Notes: generated by a model not told the origin, from the letters alone. A stretch of 28,825 nt of DNA from a virus (IMGVR_UViG_3300048591_001619:1-28825), one strand, 5' to 3'; shown: positions 1 to 17,746, numbered from the stretch's first letter. Numbers and translations: made by a program.

Positions 1-334
1 GCACGCTCCACCGGCTGAACAGGCTTCCGTAGGCGAGGGCACGCATCCACTCGCGCACCACTTCCACCGTGACCTCGCGCCCGTTGAAATCCTCCACCGC
101 TAGAGGCGAACCAGTCAGCTCGCGGGCCACCATCTCCACCACGCTGGTCTTTCCCACACCGGGCGGCCCATAGAGCAGCAGCTTCATGGAACCGATGACC
201 GGGTCTGCGGCGGAAAGGCGGCGGGCCTTGGTCACCTGGGCCTTGGCCACGCGCTTGGCTTGTCCGATCAGGTCGTTCGGAGAGGCGGGTTTCCAGTTCA
301 TGGGGGACACGAGAAGATCAGGTTCAGCAGGCAT
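1..334 (-). CDS. AAA+ ATPase, RarA/RFC-like, 3' end outside window
   Basis: N-terminal 111 codons of an AAA+ ATPase running off the left edge. A Walker A motif, GPPGVGKTS, lies at about residues 56-64, after an N-terminal stretch (SPNDLIGQAKRVAKAQ) like that which opens RarA/MgsA, RuvB and clamp-loader proteins. Such proteins use ATP to load or remodel complexes at replication forks. I place the start at ATG 334-332, which overlaps the end of the 62-residue gene by 11 bases; an in-frame ATG at 301 is the alternative. It is the last visible gene of a minus-strand run joined by overlaps. Walker B and the C-terminal domain are outside the window, so the subfamily is open. A separate gene at 4967-5548 looks like the C-terminal domain of this family. 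Confidence 0.8.
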   Translation of the reverse strand, partial: MPAEPDLLVSPMNWKPASPNDLIGQAKRVAKAQVTKARRLSAADPVIGSMKLLLYGPPGVGKTSVVEMVARELTGSPLAVEDFNGREVTVEVVREWMRALAYGSLFSRWSV

Positions 335-512: not shown

Positions 513-1231
513 GAGTGTGCCCAGCCCTCCTTCCTGGCCCGCGCCTTCACCGTGTTCACCGAAAGGTCGAAGGCGGCGGCTGTCTGCTTGAGGCTGCGGT
601 TGCGGCGGTAGAGCTTCTTGACCGCTTTCCAGTCGATCACCCGTCCGTCCACGGTGACTGAGGGGCGTCCTCGCGGTCGCTTTTGGCGCGGTTGCCGCTG
701 CCGCCGCTGTTCCGCATTGGACTGAACCCGCTCCACCACGTCCTCGCTTGGCGGCGGGGAGCCGGATCGCATCTGATCGCGGATCTCGGTGAGCTGGCGT
801 TGGGCGTGACTCCGCACCCGTTCGAGTTCTTCCTCGCTGAGCTGCGAGGTGTCGCCGTCGCTGAACGGATCGAAGCGTTCGTGGCTCCCGTTGGTTTGCG
901 GCTCGGTTCTTGGAGCGGCGAGAGCCTCCGCGCGCAGTTCACCGAGCTGTTTCCGCACTTCCTCCGCCGCCGCGACGCGGATGGCTTCCCCGACGCTCGG
1001 TGGCGTGGAGCCGTCCTCGAAGCGCCGGAGCGCCTCGGCCACCTTGGCTTCGGCGATCTCGCCGATCAGTTCCACGGGGATCTCGGTGATCGAATACACG
1101 ATCCCGGTGAGCGAGCGCATCCCGAGCAGGGCGCGCATCTGGTTGCGGGCTTCGCGCGGGGTAGGTGCTTCGAGGCGGTCGTCGAAAACCACGCGTCCGC
1201 CCTGGCTGGCGATGATCTTGAATAGCTTCAT
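509..1231 (-). CDS. HTH/AT-hook DNA-binding protein (240 aa)
   Basis: Likely regulator or DNA-packaging accessory protein. The N-terminus (about 1-75) is a compact alpha/beta region starting MKLFKIIASQGGRVVF. The middle (about 75-180) is charged and probably helical. Near the C-terminus is an AT-hook-like KRPRGRPS, followed by a probable helix-turn-helix (DWKAVKKLYRRNRSLKQTAA, then FDLSVNTVKARARKEGW) of the type seen in phage and transposon DNA-binding proteins. The start at ATG 1231 overlaps the amidotransferase stop (ATGA) and has ACCCTAAC nine bases upstream. The same frame stays open for 210 codons further upstream, but that stretch is a shadow of the amidotransferase. The target DNA is unknown; the end of the 48-bp repeat copy lies 32 bases upstream of its own start. 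Confidence 0.75.
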   Translation of the reverse strand: MKLFKIIASQGGRVVFDDRLEAPTPREARNQMRALLGMRSLTGIVYSITEIPVELIGEIAEAKVAEALRRFEDGSTPPSVGEAIRVAAAEEVRKQLGELRAEALAAPRTEPQTNGSHERFDPFSDGDTSQLSEEELERVRSHAQRQLTEIRDQMRSGSPPPSEDVVERVQSNAEQRRQRQPRQKRPRGRPSVTVDGRVIDWKAVKKLYRRNRSLKQTAAAFDLSVNTVKARARKEGWAHS

Positions 1232-1959
1232 TGGCAATGCGTTAGGGTCAGGGATGAAATGAGGCTCTGAGCCGTGGCGCGTGGTGTCGCGCCGTTTTGA
1301 TCGCCATTTTCCGAGGCCTCTGGAGTCCAGAACTCGGACTGCTGAAAGCCGGCGGCGCAGGCCGCGGGATCGGAGAGGTCGAGGCCGCCGGAAACGGGGA
1401 CGCCGAGCCGCCGCAGGAAATTGCGGTTGCTCACCCGCATCCCCTCGAACTCCGCCCACGGGCCGTAGAGCCGGGTCTGCTTGGCGTTCATCCAAACCCA
1501 CCGGCCGGGCAGCTTGGAAAGGATGCGCCTGCCGTGGGCATGCACGCAGAGCGCGGCGGCGCGGGTATCGCTCATCGGACCGCGCGGGAGCCGCTTGCCA
1601 TGTTCCTGGCGCAGGCGGCGCAGGGCCTCGTCGTAGGCCGGCCAGGTGCCGTTGTGGAAGAGCACGGTGTTCGCCTCTCCAAAAAGGTCGGTCTTCGACC
1701 AGCGGGTCACCGGGAACGGGTGGCAGAGATCCGCATCGACGCCGCCGACGCTGGCCCAGCGGAAGTGGATGATGACTTCGCCGTCGAGTTCCGCGAGCAG
1801 CGCCTCCACATCGTCCACATCGAGGTTCTTCATCCAGCGGACTTTTCCGCGTTCCCGCCAAGCCATCCCTGCCCCGTGGGGGTTGGCATCGTGGCAGGCT
1901 TCGAGCACGTCCCGCGCGGGGCGCGCGTTTTCATCGGGGCATACGAGTATCACACACAT
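1228..1959 (-). CDS. Class II glutamine amidotransferase-like protein
   Basis: Predicted Ntn hydrolase that would release ammonia from glutamine and pass it to a partner ligase. The sequence begins Met-Cys, so Cys2 becomes the N-terminal nucleophile after methionine removal. HFRWAS (65-70) and FHNGTW (101-106) match the conserved Arg/His and Asn-Gly elements of the class II (GATase_2) fold. At 243 residues it is a stand-alone amidotransferase domain with no synthase domain attached. It lies directly downstream of the amidoligase, as in amidoligase cassettes described by comparative genomics. ACCCTAAC is 12 bases before the ATG. Its last ~25 codons are encoded by the 48-bp repeat, giving ENGDQNGATPRATA. 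The fold assignment is good; the substrate is unknown. Confidence 0.85.
   Translation of the reverse strand: MCVILVCPDENARPARDVLEACHDANPHGAGMAWRERGKVRWMKNLDVDDVEALLAELDGEVIIHFRWASVGGVDADLCHPFPVTRWSKTDLFGEANTVLFHNGTWPAYDEALRRLRQEHGKRLPRGPMSDTRAAALCVHAHGRRILSKLPGRWVWMNAKQTRLYGPWAEFEGMRVSNRNFLRRLGVPVSGGLDLSDPAACAAGFQQSEFWTPEASENGDQNGATPRATAQSLISSLTLTHCQ
1263..1310 (-). repeat. 48-bp leader repeat, copy 1
   Basis: Copy 1 lies in the 3' end of the amidotransferase gene, ending 32 bases before the HTH-protein start. Minus-strand core AAAATGGCGATCAAAACGG, then GCGCGACACCACGCGCC, which can fold into a GGCGCG/CGCGCC stem with loop ACACCA. Confidence 0.85.
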
Positions 1960-2032
1960 CTTAGTAGTTCTGTTAGGGTTCTGAGGCCAAAGGCTCTCAT
2001 GGATGGGTTCAGGGTTGGGTGGAGCCGACGCC

Positions 2033-3004
2033 TCAGAGCTGGGCGTCGGGGAAGCGCTGATCGAAGCGCTTGCAGAGGCGCTGGGCTTCCTTGCGGATGG
2101 CGGGCAGTTCCGCGTGCAGGGTGCCGAAGAGCCCGAGGGCGGCGGGCCGCTTGGAGCCGATCCAGCCGAGGTAATCGTGCAGGTAGCGCAGGGCGGAGAC
2201 GGCGGTGGCGGTGCGCTTGATCTGCGCCTTGTTCTTGGTGAATCCGCCGAGGCACTTCACTTCGTGGGCGCGGCGGCAGAGGCCGAGCACCGTGCCAAGG
2301 TGATGCAGGATCTTCTTGGCGTTGAGCGTGCCGGCGAAGACGCGGAACTCCACCACTCCACAGTATTTGCCGGAGGCGTCGCGCTTGAAGGCCTTGCGGA
2401 AGTTGAGCATCCCGCGCCCGCACTGCTCGACGCACTCGGCTTTGACCCGCTCCTCCTCGGTGGTGACCAGCCGCCGCATCTTCGCTCCGGTGTCCTCGAA
2501 GAGCGGGTGGCTGTAGTGGTTCAGGTGGCGCGCGGTTCCCGTCTGGCCGTAGAGACCACGGGCGTGCCACCGGCTGATGTGGGCGAGCTTGCGGATGAAC
2601 TCGCTCACCACCCTCGGATCGTCCGTTCCGATCACGCTCTCGATCCCCACGGTGATGTGGCAGCCGCAGCTGTCGTTCACCGTGGCTCCGATGGCGTGCG
2701 TCCATTCCACGAAGCGCAGCAGGCAGGCAATGCCCTCGTCGCCGTGGAGGATGGGTGACACGAATTCGCAGGGCGACTGGTCCGCGTCGCAGCGGATGGA
2801 GCCGTCGCGCTCGGCTTTCCATCGGCTGCCCCGGAAATCGGGGGCGTTGACGGGGAGCGTGCTGCTCGCGTCGATGCCCACTTGGACCGGGTGGCCGCGG
2901 TGGTAGCCGCCGACGTTCACCCCGGCGGTGGTGGGGATGCGGGTCTCCAGCTCGATCCCCCACCGGATCTGGCTGGCTTGATGGTCTGGCTGCTTAACTT
3001 TCAT
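2033..3004 (-). CDS. Amidoligase_2-family COOH-NH2 ligase
   Basis: Predicted ATP-dependent ligase that joins a carboxylate to an amine (GS-like fold, Amidoligase_2 family). Family signatures in order: WGIELE at 15-20, CEFVSP at 79-84, CGCHITVGI at 113-121 (equivalent to the GxHVH-type motif), and GVVEFRVFAGTLNAKK at 216-231. The 323-residue length is usual for the family. The ATG at 3004 is preceded by ACCCTAAC 11 bases upstream and by a 48-bp repeat. The class II amidotransferase follows after 73 bases. Published comparative genomics of this family predicts peptide-tag or small-metabolite modification, often with a class II amidotransferase partner. The actual substrate here cannot be read from sequence. 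Confidence 0.85.
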   Translation of the reverse strand: MKVKQPDHQASQIRWGIELETRIPTTAGVNVGGYHRGHPVQVGIDASSTLPVNAPDFRGSRWKAERDGSIRCDADQSPCEFVSPILHGDEGIACLLRFVEWTHAIGATVNDSCGCHITVGIESVIGTDDPRVVSEFIRKLAHISRWHARGLYGQTGTARHLNHYSHPLFEDTGAKMRRLVTTEEERVKAECVEQCGRGMLNFRKAFKRDASGKYCGVVEFRVFAGTLNAKKILHHLGTVLGLCRRAHEVKCLGGFTKNKAQIKRTATAVSALRYLHDYLGWIGSKRPAALGLFGTLHAELPAIRKEAQRLCKRFDQRFPDAQL

Positions 3005-3039: not shown

Positions 3040-3087
3040 GCCTCTTCACCGTCCCTCGTGGTGTCGCGCCGTTTTGATCACCATTTT
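3040..3087 (-). repeat. 48-bp leader repeat, copy 2
   Basis: Copy 2 is intergenic, 36 bases upstream of the amidoligase start. Core AAAATGGTGATCAAAACGG and GCGCGACACCACG are conserved; the stem's right arm is changed to AGGGACGG, so the hairpin is lost here. Confidence 0.85.
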
Positions 3088-3131
3088 AACGACGGGAATC
3101 AGCCAGCCCCGATGGGGGGGGAATCCCGACG

Positions 3132-3190: not shown

Positions 3191-4075
3191 TCACAGGTCC
3201 CACGCCTCGCGGAACCCGAGGAACTTGGGGAAGCGCGGCGCTTCCTTTGCCCCGCTCGGCTGGTGGCGGAACTTCACCAGTCTCCCCACCAGCGTCTCGC
3301 GCCGCTCCCAGAGGGTGACCCGGTCGATCCCGCCGAGCACATGGTTGTAGCCGACCCGGAACTCCACGCCGGTCTCCGCGTGGCGCACGACGAAGCCGCC
3401 CAGCTCGCCGCGCCCGACCAGACCGGCCTGGGCGAGGCTGCGCTTGGTCCTCCCGAAGGCGTCCTTCTCGGCGGGGTTCAGGTTGCTCATGCCTTCGTAG
3501 GTGTCGATGACCACCGCCTCGTCGTCCTCGAAGCGCTTGATCTTGAGCAGGTGCCCCTCGCGCTCGGTGGACCGCCCGCACTTGTAGGGCGAATGCGGCG
3601 TGCGGATCATGACGCCCTCGTAGCCCTCGCCGACGCAGCGTTCCTCGTAGGCCATCAGCTCGTCGAGGCAGCCCTGCCGCTCCGGCAGGATCTTGTCCAC
3701 CCGCTCGTAGTCCGGCAGGCGGCTCAGTTCACCCATGCGTTCGGCGTAGGGCTTGCCGAGCGCCTCGCTCACGTAGTCGAACACGGCGAAGGTGAAGTCC
3801 GGCTCGCCCCCGGCGCGGCCCACGTGCCCGGCGGTCTCGCTGAAAGTCGTGCCTTTCACGATCAGCTCGCCGTCGAGTCCGTCGGGCAGGTTCGCCTCGA
3901 TCCACTCGCGGATGAAGCGGTTGGACACGGGCTTGAAGGAGCGGGTCAGGGCGCGTCCGCCGACCTTGAGGCAGCGGATGCCGTCGAGCTTGGGTGTGGC
4001 CAGCAGCGGGAAGCTGAGGGACTCGGGGCGCTCGCACTTGCCGGCGAGCATCGGCTTGGTGATGGGATGGTTCAT
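3191..4075 (-). CDS. ATP-dependent DNA ligase
   Basis: Seals nicks in DNA by an adenylated-lysine mechanism. Motif I is PKLDG with Lys29 as the expected AMP acceptor; motif III is DGLDGELIV (about 75-83); motif IV is EGVMIRTP and motif V is HLLKIKRF. The C-terminal part (about 210-294) fits an OB-fold. At 294 residues it is a minimal ligase of the T7-like or ChlV-like size. I start it at ATG 4075; an upstream in-frame ATG at 4168 would only translate the 48-bp repeat. A strong terminator lies just downstream (3132-3167), so it probably ends a transcription unit. It likely serves phage replication or repair. Confidence in family is high. Confidence 0.92.
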   Translation of the reverse strand: MNHPITKPMLAGKCERPESLSFPLLATPKLDGIRCLKVGGRALTRSFKPVSNRFIREWIEANLPDGLDGELIVKGTTFSETAGHVGRAGGEPDFTFAVFDYVSEALGKPYAERMGELSRLPDYERVDKILPERQGCLDELMAYEERCVGEGYEGVMIRTPHSPYKCGRSTEREGHLLKIKRFEDDEAVVIDTYEGMSNLNPAEKDAFGRTKRSLAQAGLVGRGELGGFVVRHAETGVEFRVGYNHVLGGIDRVTLWERRETLVGRLVKFRHQPSGAKEAPRFPKFLGFREAWDL

Positions 4076-4408
4076 GATGTCTTCACTGGGTTTGGGTTCG
4101 GTGGCCCTCGTGGGCCGCTTCCTGCCTCTTGCCCGTGGCGCGTGGTGTCGCGCCGTTTTGATCACCATTTTGCGTTAGTGGGGCGCGAAAGCCGCGAAGT
4201 GTCGTAGATTCCACGATTCGAGGGAGGATTTGCCCCGCCATCGACGCTCTTGAACGCCTTCTTGGCGTGTCATCGTCCTCCCTTTGCAATGCCCCAATGC
4301 CCATCACCTTTGCATGAAGCCGCAGAATGATTTGTTTTACGCCGGGTGAGGCTCCCCCATGATCATGCACACGAACACAGCAACTCCTGAAGAATTTCTC
4401 CATCCCGA
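4076..4408. other. Intergenic region between ligase and HNH gene
   Basis: 333 bases without a convincing gene. It holds repeat copy 3, a small hairpin (ACGCC/GGCGT near 4255-4271), a GGGAGGA/TCCTCCC inverted pair around it, and A/T-richer sequence near the HNH start. A frame of 106 codons on the minus strand is open but has no protein-like pattern. Promoters for the two divergent genes are expected here; I cannot identify a clear -35/-10 pair. Confidence 0.5.
4124..4171 (-). repeat. 48-bp leader repeat, copy 3
   Basis: Copy 3 is upstream of the DNA ligase gene by 49 bases. It has the complete GGCGCG/CGCGCC stem and an ATGGTG in frame with the ligase, so a longer ligase would start inside it. 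Confidence 0.85.
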
Positions 4409-4909
4409 ATGACCTTAGAAAAACTGCCTAACAAAACATATCCAGCGCTGGGTCTGTCACTCATTGATCGAGCGTTCAAGGAAGCACATGCGGAAAGGTG
4501 CCCTTTGAGCGCGCTAGGCGAGATCAAGGCCTACTTCGAGGCAGATGGCGGGCTCCGCTGCGTCTATTGCGGTGATGAGAGCCCTTCACGCTGGGATCAC
4601 TTCTTCCCGGTTTCGAAGGGCGGCGACACCGTTCCTGGCAATCTCGTTCCGTCATGCGCTCGCTGCGATGATTCAAAGCAGCACAAGACGCTTGAGGAGT
4701 GGTTTTCCAGCAGGGCAACTCACAAGCCCCCGGAGAATTTACACGATGCTATTGTAATGAGAATTGCACGCTATCAGAAACACTTTGGCTATACCGAGCG
4801 CCCCTTTTTGGAGAAAATCGATGAACCAACGAGAGAGAAATACGAGCGGCTCACCACAGCTCTCCAGACAGTCCGCGATGTCCTAAGGGCGGACGGCATT
4901 ATCAACTAG
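4409..4909 (+). CDS. HNH endonuclease
   Basis: Small HNH nuclease of 166 residues. CVYCG (about 51-55), WDHFFPVSKGG (about 62-72), NLVP and CARCDDSKQHK (about 83-93) form a beta-beta-alpha metal finger with two zinc-binding CxxC pairs. It is the only plus-strand gene in an otherwise minus-strand arm, and its base composition is visibly richer in A/T than its neighbours. That suggests recent acquisition as a moron or free-standing homing endonuclease. No clear Shine-Dalgarno sequence precedes ATG 4409. It could also be a cellular HNH gene picked up from a host. Cleavage target unknown. Confidence 0.85.
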   Translation: MTLEKLPNKTYPALGLSLIDRAFKEAHAERCPLSALGEIKAYFEADGGLRCVYCGDESPSRWDHFFPVSKGGDTVPGNLVPSCARCDDSKQHKTLEEWFSSRATHKPPENLHDAIVMRIARYQKHFGYTERPFLEKIDEPTREKYERLTTALQTVRDVLRADGIIN

Positions 4910-4966: not shown

Positions 4967-5548
4967 TCACGGCAGGTCGTCGAACAGGCCCGGCTGGTGG
5001 GGTTCCAACGCCTCCTGCTCGGCCTTGAAGAAGTCCTTCTTCGTCTTGCCCCGCTTCCGACCTTCACGCGTGTGGCAGTCGTAGGCGTAGTTGGGGATGG
5101 GCACGTAGTCGTCCGCCTTGCGCAGTTCGTCGGCGAGCGTGTTCGGGTCGAGCCCGGCGCTCTCGTCGTAGACGAAGTTTTGCAGGTGGTCGGCGTCCCG
5201 GCTCTTCTTGGAAAGGCAGAGCAAGATCACCGCCTTCGAGATGAAGATTCGGCCACGGTGCTTCTTGGCGGGTACACCTTCATTGACCGCGAGGTAGGCG
5301 TCGTGGAGCGCCTTGACCTCCTGGGTGAGGATGCCCCAGCAGTCCTCCGCGCTCACGGTGAGGAGCCGCTTCCAACAGTATTTGCCGAAGCCGCTCGCCC
5401 ACAGTTCCAGCGCCCAGTAACCGGCCAGCGCGGCGTCGCCCCGGCGGATGCCTTTCTGCATCGCCGAGGACACCTCGCTGAATTGGTAGCCGCGCTTGGT
5501 GCGAAGGTTCATCGGATCGTTGAGTAACAGGTTAGGTAGGTCGTCCAT
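4967..5548 (-). CDS. RarA/MgsA C-terminal-domain-like protein
   Basis: Helical protein of 193 residues resembling the C-terminal half of RarA/MgsA or the collar domain of clamp loaders. The stretches SAMQKGIRRGDAALAGYWAL, WKRLLTVSAEDCW and RGRIFISKAVILLCLSKKSR line up by eye with the RarA pattern (K-x-R-x-D-x-x-AALYW, R-R-L-x-x-x-A-x-ED, and G-R-x-x-x-x-AV-x-x-L). It has no ATPase motif of its own. The start is most likely ATG 5548 (MDDLPNLLL); an ATG at 5584 lies inside repeat copy 4. It may pair with the AAA+ protein at the left edge, which would make a split loader. The match is from memory of the family, so confidence is moderate. Confidence 0.65.
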   Translation of the reverse strand: MDDLPNLLLNDPMNLRTKRGYQFSEVSSAMQKGIRRGDAALAGYWALELWASGFGKYCWKRLLTVSAEDCWGILTQEVKALHDAYLAVNEGVPAKKHRGRIFISKAVILLCLSKKSRDADHLQNFVYDESAGLDPNTLADELRKADDYVPIPNYAYDCHTREGRKRGKTKKDFFKAEQEALEPHQPGLFDDLP

Positions 5549-5555
5549 GGGAGGA

Positions 5556-5603
5556 GCCTCTTGGCCGTGGCTTTGAGGTTCCATCCGTTTGCATCACCAT
5601 TTT
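5556..5603 (-). repeat. 48-bp leader repeat, copy 4 (diverged)
   Basis: Copy 4 lies just before the RarA-C-like gene (start 5548). The ends AAAATGGTGAT and AGCCACGGCCAAGAGGC are kept while the middle differs. In the NGD frame the product stays similar (NGDANGWNLKATAKR against NGDQNGATPRATGKR). Confidence 0.75.
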
Positions 5604-5665
5604 CCGGCAGGTGGCTGGGTGGGTCGCGATAAAAGGAGGGTGTTCGGGGGTGCCTCATCATGAAC

Positions 5666-6475
5666 TCAGCGGTGCAGGTTGAGGCTCTGCCGCCGGGGTG
5701 CGTGGATCGCGACACGCTCCTGGCTCTTGTAATTTTCGAAGCGGATGTGGACCTTCCACTTGCGCTTGAGGTGGCGCTTTTCCGCTGTGATCCGGTCGGC
5801 GGTTCGGAAGATCGAGTTGCCACCAAGGTTCTTGTCCCTTCCCTGGACGAAGCAGAACCGCGCCTCGTTCCAGACCAGCCGGGTGTCGAGCAACTCCTGG
5901 AGCGTGGCATCGATGTCGCACTTGCACTTGAGCAACTCGTCCCACTTGGGCGCGTTGCCGTTCTCGTCCCGCACGATGCCGACCGCCCCGCCAACCCAGT
6001 GGTTCACGCCGAAGGGATCGTTGCGCTGAAGGAGGCGGGGATCGCTGCGCTGGTGCCAGCCGAAAAGCCGGGCGTCCGCGCCCCGCGCACACCACGCTGC
6101 GTTCGTGATCATGGCGAGGGTTTCTTCCGGGCTCAGCTTCCGGCAGCGGAGGCTCACCATGCAGACGCAGGCGGTGATGTCGTCGTCGAGCATGACGACG
6201 GCGTCCTCAGTGAAGCGGTCGAGGATCCAATTCCGCACGGCGGACACGCCCGTGATCTCATCCGGGATGAGCACGGTTTCCGGCAGCGGGATGCCGGCGT
6301 AGTCAGCCTTTTCGCTTTCGGGAACGACCAGCGTTGCGCTGGGGAACAGCTTGTGGCTGGTCATCGTCCTTGCCCGGCTGCGGCTCAGGATCACGAGCCT
6401 CAGTTTCAGGGGACGGAGTTCCGGCCACGGGTTGTCCGGCGGCGCGCTGGCAGAGTTGGAGCAGTCGTTTTCCAT
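5666..6475 (-). CDS. TAGT-like (TET/JBP-associated) glycosyltransferase
   Basis: Predicted GT-A-type glycosyltransferase of 269 residues. A first strand with an SRSR turn (28-34, VILSRSR) is followed by TLVVPESEKADY, then GVSAVRNWILDRF (76-88), and a DDD metal/sugar-nucleotide site in VVMLDDDI (93-100). Later come CDIDATLQEL and FVQGRDKNLGGN. This order matches the TAGT family predicted to glycosylate oxidised pyrimidines in phage DNA. The ATG at 6475 has a good GGAAGG ribosome site upstream. The first 58 codons overlap the ParB-like gene in another frame. No base-oxidising or hydroxymethylating enzyme is in the window, so a non-DNA acceptor remains possible. Confidence 0.65.
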   Translation of the reverse strand: MENDCSNSASAPPDNPWPELRPLKLRLVILSRSRARTMTSHKLFPSATLVVPESEKADYAGIPLPETVLIPDEITGVSAVRNWILDRFTEDAVVMLDDDITACVCMVSLRCRKLSPEETLAMITNAAWCARGADARLFGWHQRSDPRLLQRNDPFGVNHWVGGAVGIVRDENGNAPKWDELLKCKCDIDATLQELLDTRLVWNEARFCFVQGRDKNLGGNSIFRTADRITAEKRHLKRKWKVHIRFENYKSQERVAIHAPRRQSLNLHR

Positions 6476-7094
6476 GTAAAACCCTTCCGATTCCGAGCTT
6501 CTTGGTGGTGCGGGTGATCGAGTAATCCACCTCGCGCACCCCCATGAGCTGGAGCGCCTGCATCCAGTCGCGCAGGTCGTGGAACATGAAGACGAGGTAG
6601 TCGTGGTGCTCGAAGGCCTGGCACTCCATCCGGGGGATCGGCTCGATGTCGTCCGCCGGGTCGTCGTCCTCGAAGAGCTTGCGGATCTCGTCCTCCATGA
6701 AGCCGGTCAGCTCGATGTCGAAGTCCGGATCGGCTTCCTCGATCTGTTTGAGGAGGCTGCGCAGGTCGTCCTCGTCGAGCTCGGCCAGTTCCGCGAGGCG
6801 GTTGTCGGCCAGGAGGTCGGCCAGTTCCTCAGCGTCCGAACCGTAGTCCTGTTCGTCGAGGGGCACGGTATCGCAGCCCAGCAAAAGCGCCGCCTCAAGA
6901 CGCCCGTGCCCGCGCACGACAAGGCCGCTGCGCTTCGACACGGTGATCGGATTGCGCCAGCCCTGGTCCTGGATGATCGAGGCGAGCAGCTGGATCTGGT
7001 GCGCGCTGTGCCGGTTCGGGTTGGCCGGGTTCGGCTTCAACTCGTTCGGGTCGGCTTCGCGGGTGTGGGCGCAGTGGACGGGAATGCTCACCAC
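6303..7094 (-). CDS. ParB/Srx-fold protein
   Basis: ParB N-terminal-domain protein of 263 residues. The core is ELKPNPANPNRHSAHQIQLL (about 18-37), followed by IIQDQGWRNPITVS and GLVVRGHGRLEAALLLG, which is the classical ParB box 1/box 2 layout. The middle is strongly acidic (about 85-150), and no methyltransferase motif follows, unlike many phage ParB-methylases. Two GTG codons start the frame (7094 and 7091); TTGACA lies 13 bases before the second. The stop comes 173 bases inside the glycosyltransferase gene, so the last 57 residues are a disordered tail encoded out of frame. It may act as a nuclease/NTPase-like DNA-binding partner of the glycosyltransferase; this is inferred from neighbourhood only. 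Confidence 0.85.
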   Translation of the reverse strand: MVSIPVHCAHTREADPNELKPNPANPNRHSAHQIQLLASIIQDQGWRNPITVSKRSGLVVRGHGRLEAALLLGCDTVPLDEQDYGSDAEELADLLADNRLAELAELDEDDLRSLLKQIEEADPDFDIELTGFMEDEIRKLFEDDDPADDIEPIPRMECQAFEHHDYLVFMFHDLRDWMQALQLMGVREVDYSITRTTKKLGIGRVLHGKRLLQLCQRAAGQPVAGTPSPETEARDPEPQPGKDDDQPQAVPQRNAGRSRKRKG

Positions 7095-7147
7095 GCGGGC
7101 GGGCTGTCAACGGCGTGAGGTTCGTTGACTTCGAAACCCCGGGCAAT
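7095..7147. promoter_or_regulatory. Divergent control region, ParB vs terminase
   Basis: The two arms diverge here over 53 bases. TTGACA on the minus strand (7110-7105) faces ParB and TTGACT on the plus strand (7125-7130) faces the small terminase. No matching -10 boxes are seen, so promoters may lie within genes or be phage-specific. Confidence 0.45.
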
Positions 7148-7762
7148 ATGGAATCCGTCCTGCCGCCAGACGTAGCCCGCAAGCTGCTGCACAAGGATCT
7201 CGCGAACCTGGTCAAACGGGTCCACGAGGGAAAGAAGCTGACCCGCGCCGAGCGCACCATGCTCCAGAACCTCGCCGGGGCGCCGGCGGGGCATTCGGGG
7301 CCGACCCACGCCCGCAACTACGTCGAGCTGGCCGAACTGCTCGGCGTGAGCCGCCAGGCGCTCGGAGGGTGGCGCCGCCGCAAGGATGCCCCGAAAGCGG
7401 CGGCCAACGGTCTGCACGACGTGGGCGCGTGGCGCGAGTTCATGGCCCGCCACCACCTCAAGGGATCGGACGCGCCCGCCACCGATGAGGAGGCATCACT
7501 CAAGGCGCGCAAGCTCCTCGCCGAGGTGGAGGAGCGGGAGCTGCGCCTCGCGGTGAAGAAGGAACTCTACGTCCCGCTCGACCTGGTGAAACAGGAGTGG
7601 ACGACGCGGGTCGGCCGGGCGGTCGCCCTGTTGCGCAACAAGTTCGAGTCGGAGCTTCCACCGATCCTCTCCGGCCTCGACGCCGTCGGCATTCAGGAGG
7701 AGTGCCGCCGGGCCATCGACGAGGTGATGGCGATCCTGCACGCGGGCGAGGATGAACCTTGA
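7148..7762 (+). CDS. Terminase small subunit
   Basis: DNA-recognition subunit of the packaging motor, 204 residues. It holds an HTH of the Nu1/terminase type (YVELAELLGVSRQALGGWRRR, about 59-79) and then a long charged helical region (EEASLKARKLLAEVEEREL) as in lambda Nu1, with KELYVPLDLVKQEW typical of the family. It sits directly before the large terminase and overlaps its start by 11 bases. I chose ATG 7148, with TTGACT 17 bases upstream; a GTG at 7115 is the longer alternative. It is the first gene of the plus-strand virion block and probably binds the phage packaging site nearby. Confidence 0.85.
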   Translation: MESVLPPDVARKLLHKDLANLVKRVHEGKKLTRAERTMLQNLAGAPAGHSGPTHARNYVELAELLGVSRQALGGWRRRKDAPKAAANGLHDVGAWREFMARHHLKGSDAPATDEEASLKARKLLAEVEERELRLAVKKELYVPLDLVKQEWTTRVGRAVALLRNKFESELPPILSGLDAVGIQEECRRAIDEVMAILHAGEDEP

Positions 7763-9548
7763 GCTGATCGGCGAAGTCTGGCGGGGCAGCTGGAAGCCGC
7801 CCGACCGCCGTCCGCCCTGGGCGTGGGCCGAGGAGCACGTCCACCAGATCCCCTATTCGCCCGTGCCCGGTCGGTTCCGCGCCGACAATTCGCCCTGGCT
7901 GAAGGAACCGCTCGAAGCGCTGGTCGATCCGAAGGTGCGCGTCGTCTCCGTGATCGCCTCGATCCAGTCGAGCAAGACCACCATCGGCGAACTCGGGCTC
8001 TGCTACATCATCGCCAACCTGCCCGGGCCGACGCTCTGGCTCGACCAGGCCGAGAGCCGCCTCGGCCCGGTCTTCGAGGAGTGCCCTCCGGTGAAGGCGC
8101 TCTTCCCGCGCAACCGCCACCGGATGAAGACGGCGACCAAGCACTTCTCCAACGGCATGACGCTCTGGGTGCTCGGAGCCCACAACAAGACCAACCTCCA
8201 GCGGCGCTCGATCCGGTGGTTGGTCTGCGATGAAACATGGAGGATGCCGCCCGGACACATGGCCGAGGCGGAGGCGCGGGTCACCGCCTTCGGCTGGCTG
8301 GGCAAATGCCTGTTCCTCAGCCAGGGCGGCGAGGAACACGACGACACCCACCGCAAATACGAGACTACCGACCAGCGCGAGTGGACCTACGAATGCCCGG
8401 AGTGCGCGCTGCGCCAGCCGTGGAAGTGGGAGAACGTGGAGTGGAGCAAGGACGCCCGAGGCGAGGACGGCGAGTGGAACTTTTCCCAGGTGCGGGCGAC
8501 CACCTCGCTGCGTTGCGAAGGCTGCGGCCACCAGTTCGAGGACTGCGACAAGACCCGCCGACGGCTGAACAAGTCCGGGCGCTACGTGGCGCAGAACCCG
8601 AACGCTTCGCCCGAGAACGTCGGCTTCCACTGGAACGCGCTCTGCGCGATGAGCTGGGGCAGGCTCGCCGAACTCTACCTCCGCGCCAAGATCGCCGCGA
8701 GGATGGGAGATCTGGAGCCGCTCAAGATCTTCTACCAGAAGCGCCTCGCTGAACCCTGGCGGGATTTCGTGGACGACTTCCGCCTGGAGATCGAGCCGAG
8801 CGGCTACCGCCTCGGGGAATCGTGGGAAGGCGAGGCCGCGCTCGACGCCAAGGGCCGTGTCCTCGAAGCGCCGGTCGATCCCGAGGCGGCGGCTGCCCCC
8901 ATGCGCATCCTCACGGTGGACTGCCAGATGGACCATCTCTTCGCCGTGGCGCGTGGCTGGGCGGCGGACGGATCCTCCCGCCTGCTCTGGCACGAGCGTC
9001 TCCTCACCTGGGACGATGTGGACGAGTTGCAGGAGCGCTTCGGCATCCATTCCAACCTCGTCTTTGTCGATGCCGGCCACGCCACCTACGACGTGTATCG
9101 CGAGTGTGCGAAACGGGGCTGGACCGCGCTGATGGGCGACCGCCGCCCCACCTTCATCCACCGGCTCCGGGACGGGCGGAAAGTTCACCGGTTCTATGCG
9201 CCGCGAAGAAAGGTGGTGCTCAACCGGACGCAGGGCTGCTCGGTCTTCTACTGGTCGAACCTCAACATCAAGGACATGCTCGCCCGCCTGCGGCGCAACC
9301 AGGACCCGGAGCGCGGACCGACCTGGGAAATCCCGGAGGACGCGGGCGAGGATTACCTCAAGCAGATGGAGAGCGAGCGCCGTGTGAAGAAGGGCGGCAA
9401 GTGGCTCTGGCAGCAGATCGGCGACCGGCCCAACCACTACCTCGACTGCGAGGCCATGCAGGTGTGCGCGGCGGTGATGCTGAAGCTGGTGGGACGCGAG
9501 GCCGGGGGCGACACGCCGGACGGCGAGGAATCCGGCGAGGGCGATTGA
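7752..9548 (+). CDS. Terminase large subunit, lambda GpA-like
   Basis: ATPase and nuclease that packages and cuts phage DNA, 598 residues, close to the usual GpA family length. SIQSSKTT (70-77) is the Walker A-like motif with Lys75; RWLVCDETWR (155-164) is Walker B with Asp160-Glu161. Two CxxC pairs (Cys215/218 and Cys255/258) form a zinc-binding insert. Acidic residues in ILTVDCQMD (Asp390) and NLVFVDAGH (Asp440), and the later HYLDCEAM, fit the RNase H-like nuclease. The ATG at 7752 lies inside the small-terminase gene. The stop TGA is part of the TTGACA that precedes the next gene. Confidence 0.95.
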   Translation: MNLELIGEVWRGSWKPPDRRPPWAWAEEHVHQIPYSPVPGRFRADNSPWLKEPLEALVDPKVRVVSVIASIQSSKTTIGELGLCYIIANLPGPTLWLDQAESRLGPVFEECPPVKALFPRNRHRMKTATKHFSNGMTLWVLGAHNKTNLQRRSIRWLVCDETWRMPPGHMAEAEARVTAFGWLGKCLFLSQGGEEHDDTHRKYETTDQREWTYECPECALRQPWKWENVEWSKDARGEDGEWNFSQVRATTSLRCEGCGHQFEDCDKTRRRLNKSGRYVAQNPNASPENVGFHWNALCAMSWGRLAELYLRAKIAARMGDLEPLKIFYQKRLAEPWRDFVDDFRLEIEPSGYRLGESWEGEAALDAKGRVLEAPVDPEAAAAPMRILTVDCQMDHLFAVARGWAADGSSRLLWHERLLTWDDVDELQERFGIHSNLVFVDAGHATYDVYRECAKRGWTALMGDRRPTFIHRLRDGRKVHRFYAPRRKVVLNRTQGCSVFYWSNLNIKDMLARLRRNQDPERGPTWEIPEDAGEDYLKQMESERRVKKGGKWLWQQIGDRPNHYLDCEAMQVCAAVMLKLVGREAGGDTPDGEESGEGD

Positions 9549-12398: not shown

Positions 12399-13720
12399 CG
12401 CCGCTCGACGCCATCCGATCCCGCCAGCCCTGGCTCATCACGCCCGAGGCGCTGGATCATTTCGCCGCCCGGACGACCGCCTTCGCGACGGGGCAGCTTT
12501 TCCAGGATGACCCGCCCACGCATCCGCTCCTCAGCATCGAGGACGGTGTCGGCATCGTCAGCCTGGACGGGCCGCTGATCCGTCGCCCCGGCCTCATCGA
12601 GAGCTGGCTCTTCGGCGCGGTGGATACCGAGGACGCCATCGGCGCGATCCGCGAGGCGGTGAAGAACGAGAAGGTCGATGCCATCCTGCTCGACATCGAT
12701 TCGCCGGGCGGAACCGTGAACGGAACACCCGAACTCGCCGAAGCGGTCGCGGACGCATCGCGGGAGAAGTTCGTCTACGCCTTCTCCGGCGGCCTCATGT
12801 GCAGCGCGGCCTATTGGGTGGCTTCGCAGTGTGATGCCATCTACGCCTCGCCCAGCGCGCGGATCGGATCGGTCGGCGTGATCATTCCCTTCCTCGACAG
12901 CGCCGAGGCTTACCGGCAGGCGGGCCTCCACATGGAGGTGTTCGCCTCCGGCAAGTTCAAGAGCATCGGCACGCCGGGCACCTCGCTTACCGACGAACAG
13001 CGCGAGCTGCTCCAGGGCGAGGTGGAGGAAATTTTCGCCGACTTCCGCACGGCCGTTCTGACGCGAGGCCGGAAGATCCCGGACGAGGCAATGGAAGGCC
13101 AGACCTTCAGCGCCCGCCAGGCCCAGCGGCACAACCTCGCCGGGATGGCCAAGAACCGGGACGCCGTGCTCGCCCGCCTGCGCCGCCTGCACTCCGCCAA
13201 AGTTGACACGGTGGCCCGGTCGATTCCGCACGCGATCATGAAGACCGTTGAAGACCAGCTTTCCGAAGCCCTCGCCCGCATCGAAACCTTCGAAGCCGAG
13301 GCCGGGGAACGAGATCACGAACTCAAGCAGCTCTCCGGGCAGCTCGAAGAAGCCAAGGCCTCGCTGGAGGCGAAGGAAGCCGAGCTGACCACGGCGACCC
13401 AGGAACACGAAACCGCACTCGCCGACCTGAACCGCCAGTTCGAAGACGAGCGCGCCCAGGGCCGGGAGCAACTGGCCGGTGCGCGGACCGAGATCGACCA
13501 GCTCACCCAGCAGGTGACCGGGCTGACCGAAGCCAACGCCGACCTCGCCGCCCGCGAACAGGACATCGAGAAGCGGGCCGCCCTCCGTGCCGCGCAGATC
13601 GCCGCCGAATCCGGCAGCCGGACGCCCGCCCACGTCACCCCGGCGGGAGACGACCAGCCTGACCAAGCACCCAAGAGCGCCGCCGCCGTCTGGAACCGCC
13701 AGTTCCAGCCCGCCCGCTGA
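12395..13720 (+). CDS. S49-type capsid protease with C-terminal scaffold region
   Basis: Head maturation protease, 441 residues, in a lambda C/Nu3-like arrangement. The protease half (about 1-270) has DIDSPGGTVNG (100-110), the nucleophile region SGGLMCSAAYWVAS with Ser137, and the likely general base in ASGKFKSIG (Lys189), the Ser-Lys dyad of SppA/S49 enzymes. From about residue 282 the protein becomes a long charged coiled coil rich in Glu, Ala and Gln, which is scaffold-like. It starts at GTG 12395, with TTGACA 13 bases upstream. An internal ATG at 13238 could give the free scaffold. Confidence 0.9.
   Translation: MTPLDAIRSRQPWLITPEALDHFAARTTAFATGQLFQDDPPTHPLLSIEDGVGIVSLDGPLIRRPGLIESWLFGAVDTEDAIGAIREAVKNEKVDAILLDIDSPGGTVNGTPELAEAVADASREKFVYAFSGGLMCSAAYWVASQCDAIYASPSARIGSVGVIIPFLDSAEAYRQAGLHMEVFASGKFKSIGTPGTSLTDEQRELLQGEVEEIFADFRTAVLTRGRKIPDEAMEGQTFSARQAQRHNLAGMAKNRDAVLARLRRLHSAKVDTVARSIPHAIMKTVEDQLSEALARIETFEAEAGERDHELKQLSGQLEEAKASLEAKEAELTTATQEHETALADLNRQFEDERAQGREQLAGARTEIDQLTQQVTGLTEANADLAAREQDIEKRAALRAAQIAAESGSRTPAHVTPAGDDQPDQAPKSAAAVWNRQFQPAR
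13238..13720 (+). CDS. Putative internal-start scaffold protein (Nu3-like)
   Basis: In-frame candidate product of 160 residues nested in the protease gene, beginning MKTVEDQLSEALARIETFEA. The sequence is a nearly continuous coiled coil with heptad-like Leu/Ile/Ala spacing (about 1-115), then a disordered tail ending AAAVWNRQFQPAR, as expected for a scaffold that binds capsid through its C-terminus. Lambda makes Nu3 in this way from gene C. TTGACA occurs 29 bases upstream of the ATG, further than at other genes, and no clear Shine-Dalgarno is seen. Direct evidence for separate translation is lacking. Confidence 0.4.
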   Translation: MKTVEDQLSEALARIETFEAEAGERDHELKQLSGQLEEAKASLEAKEAELTTATQEHETALADLNRQFEDERAQGREQLAGARTEIDQLTQQVTGLTEANADLAAREQDIEKRAALRAAQIAAESGSRTPAHVTPAGDDQPDQAPKSAAAVWNRQFQPAR

Positions 13721-13752
13721 ACCAAGCCCATTTCTCCAACCCACATCCGACC

Positions 13753-14661
13753 ATGCCCGTTCCCACTCTTCTCGATCTTGCCAAGCTGGATGCCGGCGTC
13801 GGCTACCCGATCATCGAGGAAGCCGTCAAGAGCGCGCCCGAACTCCGGGCGGTTCCGGCCTCCACCATCATGGGCACCACCATGGAGCTCACGGTGCGCA
13901 CCGGTCTTCCCTCGGTCGCCTTCCGCGATGCCAACCAGGGCGTGGCGCGCAGCAAGTCGAGCTACGAGACCCGCACCTTCCAGACTCACATCCTCGACCA
14001 CCAGATCGCGGTCGATGAGCAGATCGTGAACGGGGCCAAGGATCGCGGACGCCTTCTCGAAAACCACGTCATCGGCGTGATGGAGGCGGCGATGCAATAC
14101 GTGGGCAGCCAGTTCTACTACGGCACCGGCCACGACGCGAAGGGCTTCCCCGGCCTGCTCGCCCAGTACGCCGCCGACAACGACCACACCGTCGATGCCG
14201 GAGGCGCCACCGCCAAGACCTCGGTCTGGTTCCTCAAGCTCGGCCCCGAGTGCCTGGAGTTCCTTTTCGGCAATGGCCAGACCATCGGCCTGAACGATAC
14301 CTGGGAGCTGGAGACCGTCTATGACGACGACGGCAACCCTTACAAGGCCTGGACCAACTGGATGTCCGGTCGGGTCGGACTGCGCCTCGCCAACCGCAAC
14401 TGCGCGGTGCGGATCAAGAACGTGGAGGAGTCCGGCGAGAACAAGAAGACGGTCACCGACGAGATCCTCTATTCGGCCTACGAGAAGTTCACCGAATTCG
14501 GCATGGAGCCGACCCACATCTTCATGAACGGGCGCTCCCGCGAGCAGCTTCGCGGCAGCCGCACGGCCACCAACCCGGCGGGCAACCCCGCGCCGCTGCC
14601 CACCGAATGGGAGGGCATCCCCATCATCCGAACCGCCTCGATCGTGAACAGCGAGGCCTGA
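13753..14661 (+). CDS. Major capsid protein, HK97 fold
   Basis: Probable major capsid protein of 302 residues directly after the protease-scaffold gene. It begins MPVPTLLDLAKLDAG, and carries an N-arm/E-loop-like strand region (ELTVRTGLPSVAFRDANQGV), a long spine-helix-like segment (LLENHVIGVMEAAMQYVGSQ), and a C-terminal WEGIPIIRTASI that matches the closing strand of HK97-type P-domains. The leader before ATG 13753 is C/A-rich with no Shine-Dalgarno sequence. No extra delta domain is obvious, in keeping with a separate scaffold. Assignment rests on position, length and pattern. Confidence 0.85.
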   Translation: MPVPTLLDLAKLDAGVGYPIIEEAVKSAPELRAVPASTIMGTTMELTVRTGLPSVAFRDANQGVARSKSSYETRTFQTHILDHQIAVDEQIVNGAKDRGRLLENHVIGVMEAAMQYVGSQFYYGTGHDAKGFPGLLAQYAADNDHTVDAGGATAKTSVWFLKLGPECLEFLFGNGQTIGLNDTWELETVYDDDGNPYKAWTNWMSGRVGLRLANRNCAVRIKNVEESGENKKTVTDEILYSAYEKFTEFGMEPTHIFMNGRSREQLRGSRTATNPAGNPAPLPTEWEGIPIIRTASIVNSEA

Positions 14662-14685
14662 TCCTCACATCCCGACCACTTCATC

Positions 14686-15078
14686 ATGCACTCTCTCAAA
14701 GACGCCGAACTGACCCGCACGCTGGCGCTCCCGGATGCTGGGAACAGCGCTTCCAGCGAATCGATCGATCTCAGCGCGACCGAACAGGTCGAGTGTCATT
14801 TCGAGGTCGAGATCGCCGTGCCCGCGCTCGCGAACCTGGCCGAGGCCAAGAAGCTCACCGTGACGCTCGAAGACTCGGCGGACGACTCCAGCTTCACCGC
14901 GATCGCCGGGTTGGCTCCGCTCGAAGTGACCGGTGGAGTGGGAGGCGGATCCGCTGCGGCCTCGCTCCGCGTGCGCCTTCCCAACACGGCCCGGCGCTAC
15001 CTGCGCGCCACCGCCGACGTCGAAGCCGCCGGGGGCGACAGCACGGGAAGCAGCCTCACCCTCGGCCTGATCTTCTGA
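14686..15078 (+). CDS. Capsid decoration/cement-like protein (Bbp16-like)
   Basis: Beta-rich protein of 130 residues immediately after the capsid gene. It starts MHSLKDAELTRTLALPDAGN, then alternates hydrophobic strands (VECHFEVEIAVPAL, KKLTVTLEDSADDSSF, ARRYLRATADVEA) and ends LTLGLIF. This pattern recalls the Bbp16-type proteins found next to capsid genes in BPP-1-like phages, which act as capsid cement. The position fits. A strong terminator follows about 50 bases downstream, so this may close the head operon. Could also be another minor head protein. Confidence 0.6.
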   Translation: MHSLKDAELTRTLALPDAGNSASSESIDLSATEQVECHFEVEIAVPALANLAEAKKLTVTLEDSADDSSFTAIAGLAPLEVTGGVGGGSAAASLRVRLPNTARRYLRATADVEAAGGDSTGSSLTLGLIF

Positions 15079-15127
15079 TCGAATCACTTTCCCGGCACAC
15101 GCGTCTCGCGGTTCTCGGGGTTAGGGT

Positions 15128-15165
15128 AAGCCCCGGTCGGTCTTCAAAACCGGCCGGGGCTTTCT
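15128..15165 (+). terminator. Rho-independent terminator after head genes
   Basis: GCCCCGGTCGG (15130-15140) pairs with CCGGCCGGGGC (15150-15160) with a single G-U, giving an 11-bp stem and a 9-base loop, followed by TTTCT. It separates the head genes from the small gene at 15212. A competing short hairpin between GGGG near 15117 and the CCCC of the left arm (15131-15134) is possible. Confidence 0.75.
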
Positions 15166-15211
15166 AGTCTGGGCAGTGGACGAGACTGCCTTTCCACTCC
15201 ATCGTGGCAGC

Positions 15212-15547
15212 ATGTGGATCGCCTCGAAATACGGTTTCTTCAGCATCGTCAAGAAAGAAGACGTTTTCCACGTCCGGGCACGCTGCCAAGCCGACTTGGA
15301 CAACCTACGCAGCGCCTCTGGGATCAGTGACGATGTGAAGGAGAGCTATCCAGGCAGCGACTACCCGTGGCGACTGATCGTCGGGACGGAATCCTTGGGG
15401 AAAGTGTTTCAAGCGTTGGAAGCAACGATCGACTACGGCAATTTCAAAGGGATGATCGGAACCACTTCCGACCAGCGGGACAAACTCGACGCCTACCACC
15501 ACATCTGGGCGGAAATGAATCGCTGGCAGGAATCCAAGGGCAGGTAG
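15212..15547 (+). CDS. Hypothetical moron protein (111 aa)
   Basis: Hypothetical protein of 111 residues starting MWIASKYGFFSIVKKEDVFH, then VRARCQADLDNLRSASGI and YPWRLIVGTESLGKVFQALE, ending in a basic tail. It reads as a small alpha/beta protein and resembles uncharacterised bacterial proteins of the same opening, with no known function. An upstream ATG-less extension to 15176 is possible but covers a hairpin (AGTGGA/TCCACT, 15175-15198). The gene is flanked by a terminator upstream and a perfect palindrome downstream and has lower G+C, which fits an autonomous moron rather than a structural gene. Confidence 0.7.
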   Translation: MWIASKYGFFSIVKKEDVFHVRARCQADLDNLRSASGISDDVKESYPGSDYPWRLIVGTESLGKVFQALEATIDYGNFKGMIGTTSDQRDKLDAYHHIWAEMNRWQESKGR

Positions 15548-15564
15548 TTCGTTGCGCAACGAAC
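15547..15564. repeat. Perfect 18-bp palindrome
   Basis: GTTCGTTGCGCAACGAAC is a perfect palindrome starting on the last base of the moron gene stop codon. It has no U-tract, so it may be an operator or a weak terminator/RNA-stabilising hairpin. TTGACA of the next gene lies 10 bases further on. Confidence 0.7.
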
Positions 15565-15596
15565 TTCGCTCGGATTGACAGACGAAGCGGGTAAGG

Positions 15597-15908
15597 ATGC
15601 CCGCCTCCCGCTACGACGAACTCGACGCCGATCTCGCCGCGATCATCGATGAAGTCGGGATCGAGGTGACTTGGAATGACGGCACCTACAAGGCAGTCGT
15701 CGCCGATCCCCGCGTCGAGCTGGACCTGCAGACCGGCGGCTTCATGCCCGAAGCCGACTTCCAGGTGAAGATCCGCAAGGCCGAGCTGCCCGATCCCGGA
15801 CCGCGAATGCGGCAGACGGTCGTCATTCGCGGCGAGACCTTCGCCATCAAGGGGCTGACCGACCGCCCCACCAGCCCGCTCCTGATCCTGCACGTCGCCC
15901 GCGCATGA
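15597..15908 (+). CDS. Head closure/head-tail connector protein
   Basis: Protein of 103 residues in the place of a head-closure (stopper) protein, between capsid genes and the tail terminator. The latter half (VVADPRVELDLQTGGFMPEA, FQVKIRKAELPDPGPRMRQT, VVIRGETFAIKGL) reads as a small beta barrel, as in lambda FII-type or gp16-like stoppers. The ATG has TTGACA 16 bases upstream. The stop overlaps the start of the tail terminator (ATGA). Assignment is mostly from order and size. Confidence 0.6.
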   Translation: MPASRYDELDADLAAIIDEVGIEVTWNDGTYKAVVADPRVELDLQTGGFMPEADFQVKIRKAELPDPGPRMRQTVVIRGETFAIKGLTDRPTSPLLILHVARA

Positions 15909-16312
15909 ACGCCTACGTCGAGAATGCCTTAGCCGACTGGCTCGTGGATGCCGGGATCACGGCCCCCGTGCATACCGGAGCCTCGGCGGAGGAATTCGAT
16001 CCCGAGCGTCTCGCGATCATCGTATCGGTGCCGGATGTGGAACATTCCGCCGGCCCGCTGCACCGCGCGACGGTGAACCTGATCGTGACCGGCCCGGCCT
16101 ATCACGCCACCCTGCAAAGCTACCGGGACGCCGCCGCAGAGATCCGCAATCTGGTGGATGCCCACGCCGACAACGGTCTGGCCGATGCGGTCGCGGAACA
16201 GGCCGGAGCCACCTTCGGCGGGCTCTGGGTGCGCGAAAGCAGCGAACGGATCGAGGAAGACCGGTGGATCCACACCCTGACTGTGGTGGCCGGTCTGGTG
16301 CGGCCGGTTTGA
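15905..16312 (+). CDS. Tail terminator-like protein (gpU-like)
   Basis: Protein of 135 residues with the length and alpha/beta pattern of tail terminators: N-terminal helix (VENALADWLVDAGI), strand (ERLAIIVSVPDVEH), strand (HRATVNLIVTGPAY), helix (QSYRDAAAEIRNLVDAHA), then closing strand (RWIHTLTVVAGLVRP). Such proteins cap the tail tube and bind the connector. It follows the head-closure gene with a 4-base overlap. The stop TGA lies inside the TTGACA that precedes the next gene. Confidence 0.65.
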   Translation: MNAYVENALADWLVDAGITAPVHTGASAEEFDPERLAIIVSVPDVEHSAGPLHRATVNLIVTGPAYHATLQSYRDAAAEIRNLVDAHADNGLADAVAEQAGATFGGLWVRESSERIEEDRWIHTLTVVAGLVRPV

Positions 16313-16328
16313 CACCCTGCCGCCTGGG

Positions 16329-16580
16329 ATGACGCAGGAGATCTACAGGCATTCGTCCGGGCGCTTCCGCGTAATCTTGATTCTCACAGCGCAGTTCGTG
16401 CTGCCGATGGGCGAAGCTCATCCGCCCCATTCACCGGGCACCTACCTGATCCAGCGGCGGCGGTGGCTTTGGTGGAGAACGCTCACGCGGCAAGGGTTCT
16501 CGAATCGAAGTGATGCGGTGCAGCGTTGCCGCGCCCTCGCCGACTGGGAGCGGCGAACGGGCGCGAGCGCATCGCGTTGA
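16329..16580 (+). CDS. Small basic hypothetical protein (83 aa)
   Basis: Very basic, Trp/Arg-rich protein of 83 residues with a hydrophobic patch (FRVILILTAQFVLPMG, about 13-28), followed by YLIQRRRWLWWRTLTRQGFS and a C-terminal helix with DAVQRCRALADWERRTG. No family recognised. It sits between the tail terminator and tail tube, where structural genes are normally adjacent, so it looks like an inserted accessory gene. TTGACA lies 14 bases before the ATG and its own stop is inside the next TTGACA, which supports it being translated. Confidence 0.6.
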   Translation: MTQEIYRHSSGRFRVILILTAQFVLPMGEAHPPHSPGTYLIQRRRWLWWRTLTRQGFSNRSDAVQRCRALADWERRTGASASR

Positions 16581-16595
16581 CAGAGCCATCCGGTT

Positions 16596-16922: not shown

Positions 16923-16926
16923 TCCC

Positions 16927-17259: not shown

Positions 17260-17266
17260 CCCGACC

Positions 17267-17725: not shown

Positions 17726-17746
17726 CCCTACCACACCCACCAACCC

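Follow-up and report, generated by a model that had tools for sequence, protein, structure and literature searches.

The amidoligase–glutaminase pair

The window, by which we mean the whole stretch of DNA analysed, is a fragment given as one 28,825-base virus record (IMGVR_UViG_3300048591_001619), and derives from a tailed, temperate phage with relatives integrated in genomes of Verrucomicrobiota. Its left part is read from the minus strand and encodes, in transcription order, a ParB N-domain protein (ParB), a TAGT-type glycosyltransferase (TAGT), an MgsA_C-like protein (MGSA), a DNA ligase (LIG), a predicted amidoligase of glutamine synthetase (GS) fold (AMI), a predicted class II glutamine amidotransferase (GAT), a helix-turn-helix protein (HTH) and an AAA+ ATPase that is cut by the window end. 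The terminase and then the structural genes follow on the plus strand. AMI and GAT are the subject of this work; such pairs have been recognized in phage sequences for more than a decade, and we know of no substrate for any of them. Iyer et al. 2009 reportedly predicted phage cassettes of an amidoligase and a glutamine amidotransferase (GATase).

A first-pass annotation, made from the sequence of the window, had proposed a GS-fold amidoligase directly followed by a Cys2-type class II amidotransferase. Both genes lie where it placed them, the motifs it named are present, and the profile searches and the structure predictions for each protein, which it suggested, agree with its assignment. AMI scored well above the curated cut-off of Pfam Amidoligase_2 (PF12224; E=1.6e-11, 45 bits against 22) and matched PHROG 2443, 'amidoligase enzyme', at 4e-15. 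Since its sequence profile had no match among PDB sequences, a fold search was needed. The AlphaFold2 model of AMI (pLDDT 95.4), compared with the PDB by Foldseek, matched the GS superfamily (GmaS, PafA, YbdK and GS, with E from 1e-4 to 1e-3), GmaS and PafA being the best. Eleven residues are invariant in 58 homologues (G16, E18, E20, D67, S69, E80, G114, H116, N201, E219 and R221), and these include the complete catalytic set of Glu, His and Arg residues (E18, E20, E80, H116, E219 and R221). AMI is, as far as sequence and model can tell, an intact GS-fold Amidoligase_2 protein and a predicted carboxylate-amine ligase.

The GAT score lies below the curated Pfam cut-off, but residues and fold support its membership of the class II amidotransferases. 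Its model, of low confidence over the approximately 40 C-terminal residues, matched the glutaminase domains of GlmS, PurF and AsnB with E values down to 1e-6. In 52 homologues, Cys2, R67 and G104 are invariant, N103 and D131 are conserved in at least 90%, and the RWA, HNG and SD motifs are invariant or nearly so. We take Cys2, Arg67, the pair Asn103-Gly104 and Asp131 to be the equivalents of the GlmS nucleophile, the arginine that binds the glutamine carboxylate, the oxyanion pair and the aspartate that holds the amino group, respectively. GAT is accordingly described here as a predicted Cys2 class II glutaminase in which every catalytic residue is kept.

Pairing of the two genes

AMI and GAT are separated by 73 nt in the window, both on the minus strand. 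They are adjacent and co-directional in 74 loci, and the gap measures 12-107 nt in 73 of them, the exception being a locus in which a paralogue had been picked. When IMG/VR was searched with each of the two proteins, 70 distinct contigs were retrieved, and the models recognized both genes on 62 of them. On two contigs that had seemed to carry GAT only (L087 and L091), a divergent amidoligase was found directly upstream of GAT; the one in L091 has a Pfam match below the cut-off and the one in L087 was recognized by its motifs and by profile comparison. Because these contigs had been fetched with AMI and GAT themselves, we repeated the retrieval with MGSA. This gave 42 distinct contigs extending 4 kb or more downstream; all of them carry both AMI and GAT, and 29 carry LIG. 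Pairing of AMI with GAT is obligatory in this module. The first-pass annotation had named the loss of catalytic residues, or a failure of the two genes to occur together in relatives, as what would speak against the cassette; the residues are intact in the 58 AMI and 52 GAT homologues, and the MGSA-based retrieval found no unpaired gene in its 42 contigs.

Both genes are under purifying selection, with ratios of nonsynonymous to synonymous substitution rates (dN/dS) of 0.09-0.27 in phage and non-phage settings alike, that is, also where no virion genes are nearby. No AMI-GAT fusion protein was found among the fetched loci. An apparent inversion of the two genes in L073 was rejected as an artefact of stop-to-stop open reading frame coordinates, the actual order being AMI then GAT. 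In unrelated phages the pair stands beside replication genes (primase, helicase and polymerase in MEP401; a replication initiator and an exonuclease in C75C1). In C75C1, an annotated amidoligase also lies upstream of a fusion of a GATase with a gamma-glutamylamine cyclotransferase (GGACT), which is a hint at gamma-glutamyl chemistry. In one phage contig (L088, 10001-12846) a tandem array combines GAT with a further amidoligase and a further class II GATase, and possible glycosyltransferase genes lie nearby.

Phage and virion-less forms of the module

A search of 84,980 species genomes yielded 16 genome loci, all in Verrucomicrobiota (Chthoniobacter flavus Ellin428, Akkermansiaceae, Prosthecobacter and Chthoniobacterales). 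Two verrucomicrobial orders were sampled for the GAT family, which was present in 25 of 387 genomes of the one and in 8 of 213 of the other. The related phages encode a tyrosine integrase, and the gene order of the prophages is conserved: terminase / ParB–TAGT–MGSA–(LIG)–AMI–GAT–HTH–AAA–AAA2. This neighbourhood comparison bears out the link that the first-pass annotation had drawn between the pair, an HTH protein and genes of DNA metabolism, the HTH gene of the window overlapping the GAT stop codon and LIG, MGSA and AAA lying alongside.

That annotation had not described the larger module of which the pair is a part, and which can also occur in the absence of virion genes. The MGSA-to-AAA2 block was found on small chromosomal elements devoid of terminase, portal, ParB and TAGT. 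In four of these loci (L218 and L220 of genome G466, L234 of G498 and L104 of G024) an integrase gene directly precedes MGSA, and the stretches fetched for them gave no match to terminase, portal, protease, capsid, tape-measure, ParB or TAGT. L218, for example, is a block of about 8.5 kb between ordinary chromosomal genes. The integrases of these elements are 58-89% identical among themselves and approximately 45-50% identical to the closest phage integrases, and form a clade of their own, which argues that the integrase-led arrangement is inherited and did not result from random decay. Their mobility is that of a candidate only, since no attachment repeats above chance length were found around them. 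Another locus, L101, adjoins a tRNA-Met gene and has chromosomal genes on both sides. In the AMI tree the non-phage copies are interspersed among the phage copies, and an origin as prophage remnants is possible for some of them. Loci L095 and L096 were discarded as chromosomal cassettes; TAGT occurs on other contigs of that genome, so that they may be pieces of a prophage. In the integrase-led element L220, positions 12466-18231 hold genes that, judged by eye from the sequence, resemble a DinB/ImuB-DnaE2 translesion cassette. What is new here is the verrucomicrobial module itself, its virion-less form, a start-associated element shared by its genes, and the use of its amidoligase gene as an insertion site.

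A shared start-associated element

The window holds four copies of a 49-nt repeat (Table 1). Among 106 loci, 25 contained matches to a model of this element, 83 in all, and 66 of these precede gene starts (AMI 23, MGSA 21, LIG 13, HTH 5 and AAA2 4), mostly 23-60 nt upstream and always on the same strand as the gene. Phages and integrase-led elements carry it alike, and in seven host genomes matches to its pattern were confined to the contig stretches that contain the module. The alignment of 18 copies is ungapped, and several copies contain a short ATG/TTG...TGA frame. An RNA structure for the conserved 47 nt was considered and rejected (z = -0.6). Since the same element stands before AMI, MGSA, LIG and AAA2, it ties AMI to genes of DNA transactions.

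The amidoligase gene as an insertion site

In genome G025 (contig C9, from L228 ~6,975 to L229 ~15,305) the AMI gene of a prophage is interrupted by an insertion of about 28 kb, an integrative element that has an integrase at its edge and carries genes for a protein kinase, a UvrA-like ATPase, an SNF2 helicase and TauD. The insertion is flanked by a 17-bp direct repeat, GTGAAGTTCCTCTGGGA. In L106, L107 and L109 the AMI gene breaks off at about residues 186-206 and unrelated sequence takes over, which suggests that the amidoligase gene is a recurrent insertion site. Some chromosomal AMI genes are also broken, with an in-frame stop in Chthoniobacter flavus and a gene in two frames in L104.

Other features of the window

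The features of the window are listed in Table 1; in the related contigs, genes were called with a simple caller based on GC content at third codon positions (GC3) together with hidden Markov model hits. The stop codon of GAT and the start of HTH overlap (ATGA). MGSA further matches PHROG 16866 (1.8e-60) and, in NCBIfam, RarA (0.0013). The HNH endonuclease gene had no counterpart in any of the first 93 related loci and is probably a recent insertion. The 3′ end of ParB and the 5′ end of TAGT share 173 nt (6303-6475), and the two genes do not overlap in the relative L003. Four related phages have nucleotide-sugar epimerase genes (G010:33562-34491, G014:33220-34149 and two more) that possibly feed TAGT. 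A search of the window against Rfam gave no match.

Table 1. Genes and repeated elements of the window, with the evidence for each
Feature	Position	Strand	Evidence or remark
AAA+ ATPase (clamp-loader/RuvB-like), cut at window end	1-334	-	sequence; homologue L111:4139-4846, AAA 3.1e-10
HTH, conserved N-terminal domain and C-terminal helix-turn-helix	509-1231	-	after GAT in most relatives
GAT, predicted class II (N-terminal Cys) glutamine amidotransferase/glutaminase domain, 243 aa	1228-1959	-	GATase_6, fold, conserved residues
Element copy 1, before HTH, inside GAT 3′ end	1265-1313	-	
AMI, predicted GS-fold amidoligase (Amidoligase_2), 323 aa	2033-3004	-	Pfam, AlphaFold2, Foldseek, invariant residues
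Element copy 2, before AMI	3042-3090	-	
LIG, ATP-dependent DNA ligase, optional module member	3191-4075	-	PHROG 114, 1.9e-54
Element copy 3, before LIG	4126-4174	-	
HNH endonuclease	4409-4909	+	between MGSA and LIG, opposite strand, low GC
MGSA, MgsA_C-like (RarA C-terminal domain as separate gene)	4967-5548	-	MgsA_C, 1.7e-4
Element copy 4, before MGSA	5558-5606	-	
TAGT-type glycosyltransferase	5666-6475	-	Pfam TAGT, 2e-6; DDD motif invariant in alignment
ParB N-domain protein	6303-7094	-	PHROG 620, 2e-33
Small terminase	7115-7762	+	PHROG 57, 1.1e-8
Large terminase (GpA)	7752-9548	+	Pfam GpA_ATPase, 4.2e-33

Possible functions of the pair

We tentatively favor a mechanism in which a single glutamine-dependent, amide-forming enzyme, expected to be expressed early, would be composed of AMI and GAT as its two subunits. 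The N-terminal cysteine of GAT (Cys2 after removal of the Met) would attack the gamma-amide of glutamine and free ammonia, while AMI would use ATP to activate a carboxylate, presumably by way of an acyl-phosphate, the route of glutamine synthetase, GmaS and PafA; capture of the GAT-derived ammonia by AMI would then give a primary amide. The carboxylate could belong to the host or to the element, as a protein side chain or C-terminus, a small metabolite or a cell-wall precursor, and would be needed by the mobile-element module with its split RarA-like AAA system and DNA ligase. As the two genes are always together in a presumed early-gene module that is also found on virion-less elements, the pair probably modifies a component of the cell or the element early in infection. 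The GS fold and the intact catalytic set of AMI are consistent with such an enzyme, as is the fold of GAT, which is closest to GlmS, PurF and AsnB. The obligatory pairing, the purifying selection, the element that AMI shares with MGSA, LIG and AAA2, and the position of the pair beside replication genes in unrelated phages also speak for it. Several observations weigh against it. Gamma-glutamyl chemistry is at least as good a fit to the GATase-GGACT fusions and to the AtdA1/AtdA2 pair described in the literature (PMC11335346). The match of GAT to GATase_6 (E=2.2e-5, 24.9 bits) stops about 2 bits short of the curated cut-off of 27. More distant amidoligases (L006 and L031-L035) have no match to the GAT model on their contigs, and 18 genomes of Verrucomicrobiota have distant amidoligases with no GAT close by, so that an amidoligase can work without GAT.

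The main rival, which we consider doubtful, is a gamma-glutamyl cycle in which AMI would link an amine to the gamma-carboxyl of glutamate (or of a Glu tag), and GAT would hydrolyze gamma-glutamyl amides and so undo or restrain the modification, as AtdA1 and AtdA2 do in aniline degradation. GmaS and PafA, the best fold matches of AMI in the PDB, both make gamma-glutamyl amides, although their modest Foldseek E value (1e-4) makes a substrate inferred from the fold weak. A GAT homologue is fused to GGACT in phages C75C1 (L353:3501-4397) and ctfjg026 (L354:3501-4718), the amidoligase and GAT of UFV-P2 cluster with a GGCT-like gene, and a GS-like enzyme with a GAT-like partner has a published precedent (PMC11335346). 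Nevertheless, a GGACT gene was found in none of 17 relatives or neighboring-lineage records, and the nearest folds of GAT are glutaminase domains that produce ammonia. A modification of the cell wall is unlikely: the pair would amidate peptidoglycan precursors, or ligate onto them, and so block superinfection or premature lysis, as suggested for the amidoligase/GATase of phiEco32 in a proposal that PMC10580990 credits to Iyer et al. 2009. Retention under purifying selection in integrated elements would suit a trait that benefits the lysogen, but no cell-wall gene was seen in the module, whose neighbors and shared start element point to DNA transactions.

The first-pass annotation had also considered a DNA-associated target, and by analogy with CmoX/CmoY and TET-TAGT systems the pair could amidate a carboxylated base alongside TAGT and ParB. 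The presence in the same phage operon of ParB and of a TAGT with an invariant DDD motif speaks for that part of the suggestion, and CmoY homologues with a glutaminase domain, often adjoined by ParB, are predicted to put ammonia on 5-carboxymethylcytosine (PMC12783734). The reading is weakened by the lack of base-preparing enzymes, as neither thymidylate synthase nor an intact C5-methyltransferase was found in 14 relatives (G011 alone has a 28-position fragment with a stop), and by eight genomes that have AMI and GAT with no TAGT match, so that there is no strict link, even though these assemblies may be incomplete. No TET/JBP match was obtained in 18 records, which counts for little given that control genomes gave none either. 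We regard hypermodification of DNA bases as very improbable. A defence cassette directed at phages or other elements, and common to prophages and small integrative elements, is quite unlikely. It would account for the occurrence on small integrase-led elements without virion genes, and AAA2 resembles the IetA/IteA ATPases; yet PADLOC models had no match for AMI, GAT, HTH, the ligase, MGSA or TAGT, the AAA protein matches a generic ATPase, and the module showed no gene for the partner protease.

A bolder extension, to which we give little credence, would make AMI and GAT the effector core of a verrucomicrobial mobile-element control module common to temperate phages and integrase-led satellites. 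A replication protein of the host or the element would receive from them a reversible mark, an amide or a gamma-glutamyl group, the split RarA-like AAA pair and AAA2 would act on the marked target, and one module-specific 47-nt element would govern all the genes. If this were true, it would be a phage-borne, pupylation-like system of protein marking. Whatever the chemistry, the pair is dispensable for virion functions, since it is present on virion-less elements. It is independent of its ParB and TAGT neighbors and is linked by the start-associated element to genes of DNA transactions. It is also a compact two-gene system well suited to direct biochemistry, and the phage and non-phage forms of this newly delimited verrucomicrobial element can be compared.

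Comparison with known systems

The 47-nt element is placed like the start-associated sequences of cluster K mycobacteriophages (PMC3203893). The insertion in G025 recalls helper-embedded satellites of the phage-inducible chromosomal island (PICI) type (PMC10111431), in that an integrative element sits inside a prophage gene; those satellites target late genes, whereas the target here is the amidoligase gene of a non-structural module. The relatives L218, L220, L234 and L104 also resemble PICI-like satellites, each having its own integrase and no matched structural genes.

Among enzymes, CmoX/CmoY, a 5-carboxymethylcytosine amide system, provides a precedent for amides on DNA (PMC12783734) and shares with the present pair an amide ligase encoded by a phage, in some cases bearing a glutaminase domain, and a nearby ParB. 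However, CmoY is a homologue of asparagine synthetase while AMI has a GS fold, and no intact gene of the CmoX type (a C5-methyltransferase) was found in the relatives. AtdA1/AtdA2 and NpaA1/NpaA2, each a GS-like gamma-glutamylanilide synthase with a GAT-like hydrolase (PMC11335346), are likewise two-gene systems; they belong to catabolic pathways with a dioxygenase, and no such genes were seen in our module. Pupylation (PafA/Dop with the Mpa ATPase) also relies on a GS-fold ligase, and the AAA2 of the module is an AAA ATPase of the Cdc48/FtsH type, but AAA2 is only distantly like the proteasome ATPases and neither a Pup-like tag nor a proteasome was seen.

The closest counterparts are the phage cassettes published for tf and UFV-P2 (LUZ24-like) and for the OM43 phages MEP401/402, with functions that are only proposed; they justify the statement of the first-pass annotation that cassettes of this type, some of them in phages, had already been described. 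As in the window, an Amidoligase_2 gene lies near a class II GATase in a block with replication genes. UFV-P2 adds genes for a COOH-NH2 ligase, an ATP-grasp protein and GGCT, none of which was seen in the verrucomicrobial module, ATP-grasp being absent from the 25 commonest families listed in the content scans of the relatives. The verrucomicrobial module differs from all of these cassettes in having MgsA_C, a ligase, HTH and two AAA genes, and in occurring outside phages as well.

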